Shown: piece by piece, positions 2,906 through 19,703 of the stretch | Position numbering within the stretch: the stretch's first letter is position 1 | How the letters are laid out: each line of letters opens with the position of its first letter | Assembly (NCBI GenBank): GCA_903948415.1 | Contig: CAJAYO010000189.1 | Location: 1 to 33,058 of the forward strand | Length of the DNA: 33,058 bases | Source: an uncultured Opitutia bacterium | Lineage (GTDB): Bacteria; Verrucomicrobiota; Verrucomicrobiia; Opitutales; Opitutaceae | Direction: 5' to 3' | Program-made: the position numbers and the translations under genes | Notes under the pieces: generated by a model | Told to the model about the DNA's origin: nothing | Seen by the model: only the letters and a program-made list of their open reading frames with translations | Databases searched by the model: none

Positions 2906-4482
2906 CGGGCTGCGGCCTTTTCGGACAGGACCCGGGCGCCGTCGGGCGAGGGCTGGAGGACGGCAATCAGGTTGCCGAGCAGGGTCTTGAATTTCTTCAG
3001 ATCGAGCGGCTTGGTCAGATGTTCGTCCATCCCGGCCGCGAGACATTTTTCGCGGGTGCCTTTCGCAATCGACGCGGTGAGCGCGATGATCGGGGTGCGT
3101 TGGCCGGGCGGTTCATCGGCGCGGATCTGCTTGGTGGCGGTGAAGCCGTCGAGATCGGGCATGTGCAGGTCCATCAGGATCGCATCGTAGCGGTGGTCGT
3201 GTGCGAGCCGGATGGCCTCTTCGCCGCCGGAGGCCAGTTCCGGATCGAAGCCGTTGCGCTGTAGAAAAATTTCGAGCAGGAAGCGGTTCGTTTCCATGTC
3301 GTCGACGACCAAAATGCGTGGTCGGCGGGTCGGGAACACGAGGGCGGGCGGGGTTTCCGTCGGTTGCTCGTCGGGCAGGGCGACCGGGGCGGCGGGAATG
3401 GTGAAGGAAAATTCGGCGCCCTGGCCCGGCTGACTCTTTACGGCGATGGCCCCACCCATGAGGCCGACGAGCCGCTGGCAGATCGCGAGCCCGAGGCCGG
3501 TGCCGCCGAAGCGGCGCGTCGTGGACGCGTCGGCCTGGACAAACATGCGGAAGAGTTTCCGGCATTTCTCCTCGGGAATGCCGATCCCGGTGTCCCGCAC
3601 GCGGAGGTTGAGGGTGCCGGAGGCGAGACCTTCAGCCGGCGGGGTCCACTGCAGAAAGACGGTGACCTGGCCGGACGGGGTGAACTTGATGGCGTTGTCG
3701 ACAAGGTTGACGACGATTTGGTGGAAGCGGAGCGGGTCGCCGGCGACGAGCAGGGGGTTGACGATCTGGGCCTCGAAGCGGAGTTCGATGTTTTTTTCGG
3801 TCGCGCGCGGGTTGAACAAGCGGAGGACCTCGAGGGTGGTTTCCACGGGGGCAAACGGCAGCTGCTCGAGGATCAGCCGGCCTTCCTCGATCTTCGAAAG
3901 GTCGAGAATGTCGTTCATCAGCGAACTGAGCCGGGTGCCCTCGCCGGTGATGGTGCCAAGGTAGCCGCGCTGGGACTCGTCCAGTTTCGTTTCGGCCAGA
4001 AGATTGGCGAAACCCATGACGGCGTTGAGCGGGGTGCGGATTTCGTGGCTCATCACCGCGAGAAAATCGCCTTTGGCGCGGTTGGCCTCGTCGGCCGCGG
4101 CCTTGGCTTTTTGGAGTTCGCGTTCGGTGTCGGCGTGCCGGCGGATCTGGGCGCGCATCAGGGCCACGAGCGTTGAACTCGCCAGGAGTACCCCGATCAG
4201 AAAAGCCGTCCCGCCGAGGGCGATGGCGCGGGCGGCGGCCAAGGAGACGGCGGGAGTGGCGACCGAGAAATCGAGCGCGCCGGACACCCACTCTGCGAGG
4301 AGCGCCCCGCTCGCGGCGAGCAAGGCGACCACACCGCAGGTGGCGGGGGAGAAGTCCCCGCTGGCGTGCCGCCGTTTGACCAGCGTCCGGCAGGCCAAAC
4401 ACGCGGCGACCGCCAGCAGGGCGAGGCACACCGCGTCGAGGCGGTAGTGCAGGAAATTTTTGAGGTGAGGCGCGGCGTGCAT
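2902..4482 (-). CDS. Membrane-anchored hybrid sensor histidine kinase with receiver domain
   Basis: A 526-residue hybrid kinase. The N-terminus has three likely membrane segments (about 16-34, 48-66 and 81-108) with no obvious periplasmic sensor domain. A short coiled coil (about 117-140) leads into HisKA with the phospho-accepting His146 in MSHEIRTPLN. The HATPase domain has its N-box at NAIKFTP (263-269), DTGIG at 297-301 and GGTGLGL at 326-332. A C-terminal receiver follows, with acidic DD 394-395, phospho-acceptor Asp438 in MDLHMPD, Thr469 and Lys491. All catalytic residues are present. No output domain or partner regulator is nearby, so phosphate probably goes to a distant HPt or regulator protein. 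It lies 132 bp downstream of rimO on the same strand, and its stop overlaps that of mpl. A small inverted repeat (GGGTC/GACCC) lies just upstream of the ATG, and no clear Shine-Dalgarno is seen. The signal sensed is unknown. Confidence 0.93.
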   Translation of the reverse strand: MHAAPHLKNFLHYRLDAVCLALLAVAACLACRTLVKRRHASGDFSPATCGVVALLAASGALLAEWVSGALDFSVATPAVSLAAARAIALGGTAFLIGVLLASSTLVALMRAQIRRHADTERELQKAKAAADEANRAKGDFLAVMSHEIRTPLNAVMGFANLLAETKLDESQRGYLGTITGEGTRLSSLMNDILDLSKIEEGRLILEQLPFAPVETTLEVLRLFNPRATEKNIELRFEAQIVNPLLVAGDPLRFHQIVVNLVDNAIKFTPSGQVTVFLQWTPPAEGLASGTLNLRVRDTGIGIPEEKCRKLFRMFVQADASTTRRFGGTGLGLAICQRLVGLMGGAIAVKSQPGQGAEFSFTIPAAPVALPDEQPTETPPALVFPTRRPRILVVDDMETNRFLLEIFLQRNGFDPELASGGEEAIRLAHDHRYDAILMDLHMPDLDGFTATKQIRADEPPGQRTPIIALTASIAKGTREKCLAAGMDEHLTKPLDLKKFKTLLGNLIAVLQPSPDGARVLSEKAAAR

Positions 4483-4553: not shown

Positions 4554-4614
4554 CTACCCCCGGCGCAGCTTTTGCTAGGTGTAGTTACGAACCGGGACGG
4601 GTCCCCGTGGGTAG
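4554..4614. other. Structured spacer between rimO and the kinase gene
   Basis: Directly after the rimO stop, CTACCC (4554-4559) and GGGTAG (4609-4614) form a 6-bp closing stem around two smaller hairpins: AGC/GCT with a TTTT loop, and ACGG/CCGT at 4597-4608. There is no T-tract on either strand, so this is not a standard intrinsic terminator. It may be an RNA processing site or the leader of the kinase gene. Confidence 0.3.
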
Positions 4615-6030
4615 TCATTGCGCCTGTTTGGCGGTCTTGCGGGTGGCGGGTTCCTGGCCGGCCGGCAGCGCGAGCAAATCGTAGTCCTCGTAGCCCGTGA
4701 TTTTCACGTCGACGAAGGCCCCGACGGGCAGCGTGAGCGGCACGTAGATGCGGCCGTCGATGTCGGGAGCGTCGGCCTCGCCGCGGGCGACGCCGGGCTC
4801 CTCGATGAGCGCGCGAAGGGTGCGGCCGGTGAAGGTCTTGCTCACCGCGGCGGCGATTTCCTTCTGGAGTTTCATCACGCGGTGCCAGCGGGCTTCCTTC
4901 ACCTTGGGGGCGATCTGGTTTTCCATCTTCGCGCCGCGGGTGCCTTCCTCCTGCGAGTAGCGAAACACCCCGAGGCGTTCGAATTTCGTTTCGCGGATGA
5001 ACTCGCAGAGTTCGTCGACGTCGGCCTCGGTTTCACCGGGGAAGCCGACGATGAACGTGGTGCGGATCGCGATACCGGGGATGCCGGCCCGGATGCGCTG
5101 GACCAGATCGCGAATATACGCGGAGGAGGTTTCGCGCTGCATCAGGCCGAGCATGTGGTCGCTGATATGCTGGAGCGGAATGTCGATGTAGCGGGCGACT
5201 TTCGGGCACTCGGCGATGGTCTTGATGAGTTCGTCGCTCCAGTGCGCCGGATGCGTGTAGAGCAGGCGAATCCAGAAATCGCCCTCGATGGCGTTGAGTT
5301 CGCGGAGGAGGGTGGTGAGGGCGGAGCCGCGCGAGGAGTCGACCGGCGTGCGCGGGTTCGGGCGTTGTTCCCACGTGTCCATGCCGAAGAACGTGGTGTC
5401 CTGGGAAATCAGATTCAGCTCCCGGACGCCTTCTTTGACGAGCTGGCGCGCCTCGGCCACGACGCTCTCGATGGTGCGGCTGCGGTGGCGGCCGCGGATC
5501 TGCGGGATGATGCAGAAGGTGCACGGGTGATTGCAGCCCTCGGCGATCTTGATGTAGGCGAAATGTTTCGGCGTAAGCCGGAAGCGGGGCGTGTCGTAGT
5601 CGGGGATGTAGGTCGACTTGCCCTCGATGAACAGGAGCGGCGCGGCGTTCTTTTCCCGTTCCTTGGCGAAGAGCCCCTCGATGATGGGGGCCACCTTGGT
5701 GACCTGGTCGAGGCCGATGAACGCGTCGACCTCGTCGTGCAGCGAGGCGGAGAGGTCTTTGGAGAAGCGCTGCGACATGCAGCCGGCGACGATGAGTTTT
5801 TGCTCCTTGCGGCGTTTCGTCATGCCGCGGGTCTGGTGGACTTCCAGAATGTGAGCGATGGATTCTTCCTTGGAGGAATCGATAAACGAGCACGTGTTGA
5901 CGATCACGACGTCGGCTTTCTCAGCGTCGGGGATGACGGTCATGCCGGCCTGATGCAGGTGGCCGACCATGATCTCGGAATCGACGAGGTTTTTGGCGCA
6001 GCCAAGGGAGATGAGACTGACTTTGAGCAT
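4615..6030 (-). CDS. rimO: Ribosomal protein uS12 (Asp) methylthiotransferase RimO
   Basis: This radical-SAM enzyme adds a methylthio group to the conserved aspartate of ribosomal protein S12 in the cytosol. The 471 residues show the full MiaB/RimO layout: an N-terminal UPF0004 domain starting LISLGCAKNLVDSE with cluster ligands Cys11, Cys47 and Cys84; the radical-SAM motif C166-x3-C170-x2-C173 in EGCNHPCTFCIIP; then a C-terminal TRAM domain. The LGCAKNLVDSE signature and the IIPQIRG stretch separate RimO from the tRNA enzyme MiaB. Length is a little over the usual ~440. No Shine-Dalgarno precedes ATG 6030. Upstream on the same strand is the 32-residue basic gene, separated by an intrinsic terminator at 6067-6093, so rimO probably has its own promoter or depends on readthrough. 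Confidence 0.95.
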   Translation of the reverse strand: MLKVSLISLGCAKNLVDSEIMVGHLHQAGMTVIPDAEKADVVIVNTCSFIDSSKEESIAHILEVHQTRGMTKRRKEQKLIVAGCMSQRFSKDLSASLHDEVDAFIGLDQVTKVAPIIEGLFAKEREKNAAPLLFIEGKSTYIPDYDTPRFRLTPKHFAYIKIAEGCNHPCTFCIIPQIRGRHRSRTIESVVAEARQLVKEGVRELNLISQDTTFFGMDTWEQRPNPRTPVDSSRGSALTTLLRELNAIEGDFWIRLLYTHPAHWSDELIKTIAECPKVARYIDIPLQHISDHMLGLMQRETSSAYIRDLVQRIRAGIPGIAIRTTFIVGFPGETEADVDELCEFIRETKFERLGVFRYSQEEGTRGAKMENQIAPKVKEARWHRVMKLQKEIAAAVSKTFTGRTLRALIEEPGVARGEADAPDIDGRIYVPLTLPVGAFVDVKITGYEDYDLLALPAGQEPATRKTAKQAQ

Positions 6031-16960: not shown

Positions 16961-17050
16961 GGAAAGGTGGGCCGCGACAGGGCGGCAACGGGCAGCGTGG
17001 ACAAGCGGCCGGCGAAGGCGAGCTATGCGCGAAACACGGGCAATGGCGGA

Positions 17051-18616
17051 CTACTTCAGCGAGGACGGCGGGAGATAGAAATCGAGCGGGGTGCGGCGCC
17101 AGACCTGACCGGTGGCGGCGCGTTGGGCGGGGTCGGTGAAGTGGTATTCGTAGCGGACGACGCGGAGGTGGCGGGGCGGTGTGGCCGGGAAGGGATTGCG
17201 CGCGAGGAGGGCGAGGACCTCGGGTGTGCCGCGGAGGAGGTGTTCGCCGAGGGACAGGACCCAGCGGTTTTGCGCGGGTGAGCCGAGGGCGGCGAACCAG
17301 AGTTGCCAGTCGAGACGCGGTTGGTGCGGGGCGACCCAGGAGGGTGCGCGGGCGAGGTCGCCGGGCTTGTGCGGAAATTCGTAGGCCAACCAGGTGCGGG
17401 TGTCGTCGCTGCCCTCGAAAATGAGTTCGGTGCGCGGATTGGTCATGACGGCGAAGAGGCCGTAGCGGTTCAAGGACCGGTAGGGCGCGAGGGCGGTGGC
17501 GACGGGGTTGAAGCCGGGGATCGGGCCGAGTCCGCGGATGAGAGCGGGGAGGGTGTCGAGCGTGGTGTAGAGCAGGACGAAAATGGCGAAGACGCGGACG
17601 GACCAACGGTGCCAGCGCCGAGGAGTGCCCGGCGTAAGCGACGGCGCGGGCGCCGACCCAGTGTCACGTAATACGTGACACTGGGTTAAATATCCTGGGT
17701 AGACTCTGTCACGTAATACGTGACAAAGGTGTCGGACGCGGCGGGGGAGGAGGCGGGGGTGGGAGGCGAGGGCGGTGTCGTCGAGGCAGAGGAGGCAGAG
17801 GGCGGCGGTGAGGAAGTTGAAGTAGGTGTAGTTGCCGGTGAGGGCGATGAGGAGCATGAGCGTCAGCGTGAGGAGGGCGGCGCGGTGCCGGAGGGCGCGG
17901 GGGGCGAAGAAGAAGAAGGGCACGATGAGCTCGACGGTGAACAGGCCGGCGCAGGCGGCGCGGTGGAGCCAGGCGGGGAGCTGGTGCGCGTAGTAGGCGA
18001 GCGGGGTGGGCAGGGGCTGGGTTTCGTAGTGAAACGTGAGGGCGGTGAGGTCGCGCCACGCGAGATCGCCGCTGAGGAGTTTGACGGCGCCGGAGAGCAG
18101 CATCAGGCGGAAGAGCAGCCAGACCAGGAGCAAGCGGGCGAGACGGGGCGGTTCGTGCGATGGGGTGTGCCAGAGCGGGACGAGACGCCAGGGGGCGAGA
18201 AAAACGGCGAGGAGGGTGGTTTCGAGGAGGAGCGCGTCCCACTGGAAGTTGAAAAAAATCTGGCCGGCGCCGCAGAGGGAGAGGTAACAGGCCCAGAGTC
18301 CGAGGAGGGCGGGGGCGGGGGCGATGCCGGCGAAGAGGAGGAGCGAGAGAGCGACGCCGGCGGCGCAGAGGGCGGTGAGCGCGGCGGGGCCGGCGCCGAT
18401 GAACCAGCAGAGTGAAGGGAGTTGGTCGCGGGCTTCGGCGGGGCCGAGTTGGCGGAGCACGGCGTCGAAGAACGGCTGCGCCGGAAGCAGGCCGTGCGGT
18501 CCGATCAGGCCGGCGAGTTGGGTCCACGCGGACGCGAACGCGACGAGGTGGACGACGGCGAGGAGGCGGAGGAAGAGCGACGCCGAGAGGGCAAAACGGG
18601 ACGGGGCGGGGCTCAT
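17051..18616 (-). CDS. Lipase maturation factor (LMF)-like integral membrane protein
   Basis: A 521-residue multi-pass membrane protein with about eight hydrophobic helices, from LRLLAVVHLVAFASAW near the N-terminus to VFAIFVLLYTTLDTLPALI around 345. The stretches FNFQWDALLLETTLLAVFLAPW and SGDLAWRDLTALTFHYETQPLP are hallmarks of the lipase maturation factor family, which in animals helps fold lipases in the ER. The bacterial role is unproven; assistance to exported hydrolases is inference. The C-terminal ~150 residues are soluble-looking. Residues about 297-321 (CHVLRD...CHVLRD) are encoded by two palindromes inside the gene, which look like an in-frame insertion in a loop between membrane helices. 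No lipase gene is adjacent. Confidence 0.8.
   Translation of the reverse strand: MSPAPSRFALSASLFLRLLAVVHLVAFASAWTQLAGLIGPHGLLPAQPFFDAVLRQLGPAEARDQLPSLCWFIGAGPAALTALCAAGVALSLLLFAGIAPAPALLGLWACYLSLCGAGQIFFNFQWDALLLETTLLAVFLAPWRLVPLWHTPSHEPPRLARLLLVWLLFRLMLLSGAVKLLSGDLAWRDLTALTFHYETQPLPTPLAYYAHQLPAWLHRAACAGLFTVELIVPFFFFAPRALRHRAALLTLTLMLLIALTGNYTYFNFLTAALCLLCLDDTALASHPRLLPRRVRHLCHVLRDRVYPGYLTQCHVLRDTGSAPAPSLTPGTPRRWHRWSVRVFAIFVLLYTTLDTLPALIRGLGPIPGFNPVATALAPYRSLNRYGLFAVMTNPRTELIFEGSDDTRTWLAYEFPHKPGDLARAPSWVAPHQPRLDWQLWFAALGSPAQNRWVLSLGEHLLRGTPEVLALLARNPFPATPPRHLRVVRYEYHFTDPAQRAATGQVWRRTPLDFYLPPSSLK
17656..17686. repeat. Perfect 31-bp palindrome inside the LMF-like gene
   Basis: ACCCAGTGTCACGTA (17656-17670) and its exact inverse TACGTGACACTGGGT (17672-17686) flank a single central A. 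On the coding strand the core reads TGTCACGTATTACGTGAC and encodes CHVLRD in frame. It is the longest perfect palindrome I noticed in the window and is AT-richer than its surroundings. Confidence 0.9.
17707..17725. repeat. Second copy of the palindrome core inside the LMF-like gene
   Basis: TGTCACGTA (17707-17715) and TACGTGACA (17717-17725) flank a central A. The 19-bp core is identical to that of the palindrome at 17656-17686; the two centres are 45 bp (15 codons) apart, so both encode CHVLRD in the same frame. The spacer repeats CTGGGT. Confidence 0.9.
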
Positions 18617-18695
18617 CGGATTCGGGCCGCGAACAAGTCAGACGCCACGAGGCGAAACCGGAGTCGGAGAGACCGCGGCCCGGCTCACGGAGCGA

Positions 18696-19703
18696 TCACG
18701 GGAGGAACTCGGTCGTGAAGGCGGTGGCGGGGGTGAGTTTGCCCTTGGGGAGGAGACCGAGGTCCTCGAGTTGGGCGATTTGGGTCGCGTACCGGGAAGC
18801 GTCGAGGCGGCCGATATTTTTCGGACCCCCGGTCGCGTCGCGACCGGTGACGAGTTTTTCGTCGATGATCGCCTGGCGCGAGAAGGCGAGGAACGCGTCG
18901 GTGTTGGGGGCGTGGGCTTTTTTCAGGGCGGTGTGTGCCGGGGTCGGATCGCCCGTGAGGTAGTCGTGCCAGCCGCGCAGGTAGGCGCGCGTGAAAGCGC
19001 GGAGTTCGGCGGGGTGGTCGCGGGCGAATTTTTTATTGGTGATCAGCACGGCGTAGGCGCGGAAGCCGGCGTCCCAGGTGGAGAGGAAGCGCGGGGGTTT
19101 GCCGCCGGCCTCGGTGATGTGGTGGGGTTCGGCGATGAAGTAGCCCTGCTGGAGCGCCTGCTTGTTGCCGAGGAAGGCGGTCACGGAGAAATTCTGCGGG
19201 ACCACGTTGAGCTTCAGACGGTATTTTTCCTGGAGAAACGTGAGAAAGGGCCAGCCGGGACGGGCGATGATCGTCCGGCCGTTGAGGTCGGCGAAGGTGC
19301 GGACGGGGCTGTCGGCGTGGACGAGCAAGCCGGAGGGATCGTCTTGGAAGACGGCGGCGAATTGCACGAACGGGAGGCCCTCGGCCTGTTGAAGCAGCGT
19401 GGTGGTGGAGTCGGCCTGGGCGATGTCGACCTTGCCGGTGGCGACGCTGGGCATGACCTGCGCGCCGGGGCCGCCGGGGAGGAGCGTGACGTCGAGGCCC
19501 TCTTCGCGAAAGAAGCCGCGGGCGAGGGCCTGGTAGAGTCCGCCGTGTTCGGGCTCGGGGACCCAGTCGAGTTGGACGGAGATTTTGGTGAGGGGCGCGG
19601 TGGCGGCGGTGACGGAGAGGTGGAGCGCGAAGAGCGGAACGGCGAGCGCGGGAAGCAGCCGGGGGAGGACGGAGGCGAGCGGACGGCGGGTGAGGCGGAT
19701 CAT
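18696..19703 (-). CDS. ABC transporter substrate-binding protein, NMT1/THI5-like
   Basis: The 335-residue exported protein has a signal peptide (about 1-34, ending at VTAATA) and the NMT1/THI5 opening ISVQLDWVPEPEHGGLYQAL, then ARGFFREEGLDVTLLPGG and SVATGKVDIAQADSTT. It is the periplasmic receptor of the importer encoded upstream and would capture a small ring compound such as a pyrimidine thiamine precursor, riboflavin or a sulfonate; the sequence does not show which. The permease stop and this gene's ATG are 7 bp apart, so it is the last gene of a three-gene operon. No thiamine or flavin biosynthesis gene is in the window, so the thi name is withheld. Confidence 0.85.
   Translation of the reverse strand: MIRLTRRPLASVLPRLLPALAVPLFALHLSVTAATAPLTKISVQLDWVPEPEHGGLYQALARGFFREEGLDVTLLPGGPGAQVMPSVATGKVDIAQADSTTTLLQQAEGLPFVQFAAVFQDDPSGLLVHADSPVRTFADLNGRTIIARPGWPFLTFLQEKYRLKLNVVPQNFSVTAFLGNKQALQQGYFIAEPHHITEAGGKPPRFLSTWDAGFRAYAVLITNKKFARDHPAELRAFTRAYLRGWHDYLTGDPTPAHTALKKAHAPNTDAFLAFSRQAIIDEKLVTGRDATGGPKNIGRLDASRYATQIAQLEDLGLLPKGKLTPATAFTTEFLP

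Follow-up and report, generated by a model that had tools for sequence, protein, structure and literature searches.

What would keep a perfect palindrome, present twice and 45 bp apart, inside the coding region of a membrane protein gene? The window considered here, by which we mean the whole stretch of 33,058 nucleotides that was analysed, comes from an uncultured bacterium of the Opitutaceae and contains such a pair (Table 1). Comparison of sequences across the family leads us to consider it likely that the pair belongs to a set of REP-like dispersed palindromes of the Opitutaceae that are putative binding sites of a vertically inherited helix-turn-helix (HTH) protein, itself encoded between copies of that palindrome.

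A palindrome pair within a lipase maturation factor gene

The first copy, ACCCAGTGTCACGTA-A-TACGTGACACTGGGT, is a perfect palindrome of odd length (31 bp), and its 19-bp core, TGTCACGTAATACGTGACA, recurs in identical form 45 bp further on (start to start), both being located where a preliminary description of this DNA had placed them. No chance match to the core was obtained in 100 shuffles of the window with up to 3 mismatches allowed, and the palindrome arm of 15 nt compares with a maximum of 13 and a mean of 8.4 in 60 Markov-1 simulations. The AT-rich contrast with the surroundings was also borne out, GC content being 46% across the pair versus 70% in the flanks. As single-stranded DNA the pair folds strongly (z -8.9), with copy 1 forming a 14-bp DNA hairpin (-16.5 kcal/mol, z -7.9), and no Rfam family matched positions 17000-18700 at its gathering score.

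Table 1. Features of the palindrome pair and its host gene in the window
Feature	Positions	Strand	Remarks
Host gene for a 521-aa membrane protein of the lipase maturation factor (LMF) family	17051-18616	-	Pfam LMF1 and LMF1_C
Palindrome copy 1, 31 bp	17656-17686		core at 17662-17680, the palindrome continuing for 6 nt to either side of it
Inter-core spacer, 26 nt	17681-17706		fast-evolving, of constant length
Palindrome copy 2, 19-bp core	17707-17725		centre base as in copy 1, 45 bp after it

The host ORF matches Pfam LMF1 (E 5.6e-55) and LMF1_C (E 9.8e-47), and the pair lies between these two domains. Each core is translated as CHVLRD within a single open frame, as had been claimed. To follow the site in relatives we used LMF orthologues retrieved by protein rather than by core, and the segment proved to be absent from two of them (G002 and G023), the outcome for which an orthologue alignment had been proposed. 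In G006 the same LMF site is occupied by a pair of another, compensated palindrome (TGTCACTTA-w-TAAGTGACA), G031 has TGTCAACTA-w-TAGTTGACA nearby, and the G007 orthologue carries three units in the 45-bp register. The G007 gene (L188, ~2392-2500) shows the 45-bp unit tandemly triplicated in frame, with one arm mismatch in the first core.

The spacer differs from that of G007 at 6/26 positions and is unalignable with that of G006, whereas the cores are conserved or compensated. The encoded peptide also changes, from CHVLRD in the window to CHLISD/CHLLSD in G006, with the palindrome retained. A decayed LMF gene common to four relatives (L199, L200, L201 and L202, in G004, G001, G008 and G003, respectively) has in all of them the same deletion, starting at about residue 254, with a perfect core at the junction; there are 0 differences in this pseudogene core, as against 6-11% in the left flank. 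The preliminary description had named as its refutation a core found only here, with the peptide kept through other codons; what the orthologues keep is the DNA palindrome and not the peptide.

Dispersal and conservation of the repeat

Pattern searches, on which all genome-wide repeat counts given here are based, located 11 exact copies of the core in the source genome and 0-39 per genome in relatives of the family, many of the genomes compared being fragmented MAGs. None were found in 51 genomes from other families of the order, and every named record carrying the core was assigned to Opitutaceae/Opitutia or Verrucomicrobia (MAGs). These copies are dispersed and frequently paired, which, together with the two LMF orthologues that lack the segment, upholds the earlier view of an inserted palindromic repeat element. 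Three loci in the source genome (the LMF pair and those at C165 and C711) are 45-bp pairs with unrelated spacer sequences, and across the family pair spacings are mostly 45-48 and 54-58 bp. The flanks of 175 copies vary, being chiefly AG/CT or TT/AA. In its general form the repeat consists of a variable arm, a TA-w-TA centre and a complementary arm.

With regard to coding context, neither side gave a coding signal at 68 of 136 loci, whereas 18 of the 136 fell within a frame that stays open. Genes with in-frame copies include LMF, rlmN, UvrA-like, MoeA-like, methyltransferase and DmsC-like genes as well as the linker of a response regulator, these names resting on recognisable motifs and, for some, on searches. 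In four genomes the core occupies one and the same position within the methyltransferase gene. Two stop-free reading phases are used in genes, giving CHV[IL]RD and VTYYVT.

Depending on the genome, the variable loop of RlmN contains one of several palindrome types of the present family or GTAG-type repeats, or is free of both, and the palindrome types differ between genera. This loop (L273-L302) is a hotspot for unrelated in-frame palindromic insertions, which in G003, G032 and G024 include REP dimers of the GTAG type. In four orthologous rlmN pairs the cores changed at 0-4/38 positions, the spacers at 7-14/26 and the flanks at 4-15%, and all of the core changes were centre flips or matched arm changes. 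Because the cores are conserved or compensated while spacers, flanks and peptides diverge, it is the DNA palindrome that is held and not the peptide. Moreover, exact palindromes have persisted in loops that change rapidly and even in a pseudogene, which implies that the site is under selection or that copies convert one another. Both the LMF and RlmN loops are too variable for comparison with empty sites to place the insertion borders.

A small HTH gene among the palindromes

Clustering of the ORFs near cores revealed a small HTH gene. On contig C64 of the source genome, cores at 4370 and 4826 have the HTH domain (4555-4803) between them, and the gene is likewise situated between cores in other genomes. 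An IstA-like cluster near cores, considered as a possible link to IS21, turned out to be this same gene, fused to an IS21 remnant in one contig. In its product of ~120 aa a helix at the N-terminus precedes a compact HTH domain; no family in Pfam, NCBIfam or PHROGs was matched at cut-off, the best weak matches being YdaS and HTH_3. The predicted structure has 4 helices after the N-terminal helix (overall pLDDT 69.6). Foldseek returned E values above 1, with P22 c2, C-proteins and lambda repressor among the matches listed, and structure comparison gave modest scores to lambda-repressor-like DNA-binding domains (VIA Z 4-6.9), the search listing showing nothing closer than the HTH fold in general. 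The model thus points to an uncharacterised lambda-repressor-like HTH protein and putative DNA binder.

The gene is present in 31 of 61 family genomes versus 0 of 34 outside, and in a phylum-wide search it occurred in 18 of 387 genomes, all from this family. A viral origin was discarded, as the viral contigs searched carried neither an exact core nor any relative of the HTH gene. Within the genus the gene is syntenic, and its dN/dS of 0.08-0.36 indicates purifying selection; across genera it has no conserved functional neighbours, local synteny being confined to the genus and to G005-G011. A perfect TA-w-TA palindrome lies within 600 bp of the HTH gene at 29 of 52 loci, on both sides in 18, and ~23 of the 52 have no perfect palindrome nearby. 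Beside the gene in G001 (L307), a 77-bp unit with one core is tandemly duplicated, versus a single unit in G004 (L306). In some genomes (G034, G059, G272) the HTH paralogues number as many as five or eight, and those of G034 and G059 have different palindrome types where palindromes were found, which suggests parallel repeat-protein pairs.

The palindromes beside the HTH gene differ by genome and by paralogue (Table 2), and the commonest dispersed type is the HTH-bracketing type in 11 of 14 genomes. Using counts compiled by hand from the matches listed, with the HTH gene's own bracketing copies removed, the own-type fraction was 0.70 versus 0.125 when shuffled (P<5e-6; 0 of 200,000 permutations as good). 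Thus 36 of 38 dispersed copies in G011 are TTTCACGTA, 18 of 19 in G050 are TGTAACGTA, those of G031 are mostly TGTCAACTA, and all of those in G005 are TTTCAC-like or one step away; in G018, G028 and G017 the main dispersed type is not the bracketing type. All 13 genomes with at least 5 exact cores carry the HTH gene, versus 18 of 48 others (P=3e-5).

Table 2. Palindrome types that bracket the HTH gene
Genome	Bracketing type
Source genome	TGTCACGTA
G006	TGTCACTTA
G005	TTTCACTTA
G011	TTTCACGTA
G050 and G018	TGTAACGTA
G025	TGTCACCTA
G031	TGTCAACTA
G047	TGTAACCTA
G048	TGTAACTTA

In correlations that ignore phylogeny, columns of the recognition helix were the top correlates at 6 of 7 variable half-site positions, with PRQR paired with TGT, PPQR or SPQR with TTT, H with C4, mostly N or Q with A4, and DRQ...A with CAACTA. 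Since the dispersed type of a species usually matches the palindromes that bracket its HTH gene, protein and repeats appear to evolve together. The preliminary description had offered a DNA-binding or RNA-hairpin site; the first part gains indirect support from an HTH protein encoded between copies, and the second received no specific support.

We therefore picture the LMF pair as one copy of a dispersed REP-like Opitutaceae repeat, and the palindrome as an operator-like putative binding site of the small lambda-repressor-like HTH protein, whose gene would be bracketed, and perhaps autoregulated, by its own sites. Each lineage would maintain one or a few HTH genes at a fixed place, each with its own palindrome type and with tens of copies of that type around the genome, often paired. 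Such copies would have spread over evolutionary time in the manner of REPs, surviving in places of low harm, that is, intergenic or, like the LMF pair, in frame within tolerant protein loops. An established palindrome would then be held by selection, probably for binding and presumably with some benefit to the host, or by conversion from other copies, so that both arms change together and a whole genome shifts type with its protein. As the HTH protein has no recognisable catalytic domain, it does not explain the origin of the copies, for which we infer a mobilising enzyme.

Alternatives, parallels and significance

One alternative is a simple regulon, in which the palindromes would be operators of an autoregulated HTH transcription factor, selected for gene control and with little mobility. 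The predicted lambda-repressor-like fold, the sites that flank the gene on both sides, the retention of sites at orthologous places (the pseudogene included) and the covariation of helix and operator all agree with it, and autoregulated Cro/CI-like repressors (lambda, P22 c2, C.Esp1396I) share both the HTH fold, as predicted here, and palindromic sites beside their own genes. Here, however, there are tens of dispersed, insertion-like copies, many of them in frame within the loops of unrelated proteins; the RlmN loop, with a different type per genus, looks insertion-like; and spreading repeats would fit both the tandem units of 45 bp or 77 bp and the pairs of fixed length whose spacers are unrelated. 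The HTH family also differs from these repressors in being unnamed in Pfam and NCBIfam. We regard a simple regulon as unlikely.

Less probable is a non-autonomous DNA transposon (MITE), with the palindrome carried in a short element bounded by terminal inverted repeats. In sister genomes the core does lie centrally in an element of ~119 bp with the ends CTAGTATTACTCTGTTA...TAACAGAGTAATACTAG, but such ends were seen neither at the window pair nor around most copies, and the spacers and flanks of most copies share only the palindrome. MITE-like elements of ~119 bp with CTAGTATTACTCTGTTA ends, a central core and a possible TA target site were seen at L049, L055, L102, L135, L152 and similar loci, and are one possible vehicle for some sister-genome cores.

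It is slightly more doubtful still that a classical REP/BIME or TIR repeat is involved, mobilised by a Y1 (RAYT or TIRYT) transposase and with the HTH protein incidental. The life style is certainly similar, for REP/REPIN systems also consist of short dispersed palindromes, often paired and mostly intergenic, each type being linked to one gene that is inherited vertically, present once and bracketed by the same repeats, as RAYTs are linked to REPINs (PMC8049555). In addition, Y1 genes are common in these genomes, and intragenic GTAG REPs have been described in Opitutus terrae (PMC3733652). Nonetheless, 0 of 70 fetched Y1 regions, taken from core-bearing and related genomes, had a core-like palindrome (up to 4 mismatches) within ~1.5 kb, and the RAYT/Y1 link was accordingly rejected. 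The core repeat is a perfect odd palindrome with a TA-w-TA centre, variable flanks and no GTAG or CGTC tag, and its partner is a small HTH protein instead of a Y1 HUH transposase. True GTAG-type dimers separately occupy the same rlmN loop in other genomes, which makes the two repeats distinct. With neither the tag nor the transposase, the core repeat is REP/RAYT-like in its behaviour and is not a member of that group.

Finally, that CHVLRD or an mRNA hairpin is the conserved entity is scarcely credible despite the strong single-stranded folding of the pair, given the two reading phases, the altered peptide beneath a persisting palindrome, its retention in a pseudogene, the majority of copies outside genes and the lack of an Rfam match.

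For the putative binding-site repeat that we favour, the closest intragenic parallels are the palindromic elements of Rickettsia and the GTAG REPs of O. terrae (PMC3733652), which also lie in frame within conserved genes, where they frequently form dimers that code for 20-30 aa; the present repeat differs in being tag-free and in having a partner protein with species-specific matching. In the open-licence papers searched we found nothing on this repeat or this HTH protein. The partner protein, the species-specific types and their mutual matching are what is new relative to the preliminary description. Although tentative, it is possible that an HTH protein without a transposase domain maintains its own putative binding palindromes as a genome-wide population and perhaps also spreads them, in a system that parallels REP/RAYT but arose independently, with protein specificity and tens of dispersed sites shifting together between species.

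The many natural protein-palindrome pairs would provide a ready set for reading the specificity code, and would allow a test of whether selection for binding is enough by itself to maintain dozens of dispersed sites and to re-tune them. They also illustrate that bacterial genes repeatedly tolerate in-frame paired palindromes. Until now the explanation for REP-like repeats has lain in RAYT transposases, and in the Opitutaceae an unrelated and apparently non-catalytic HTH family would fill that role.
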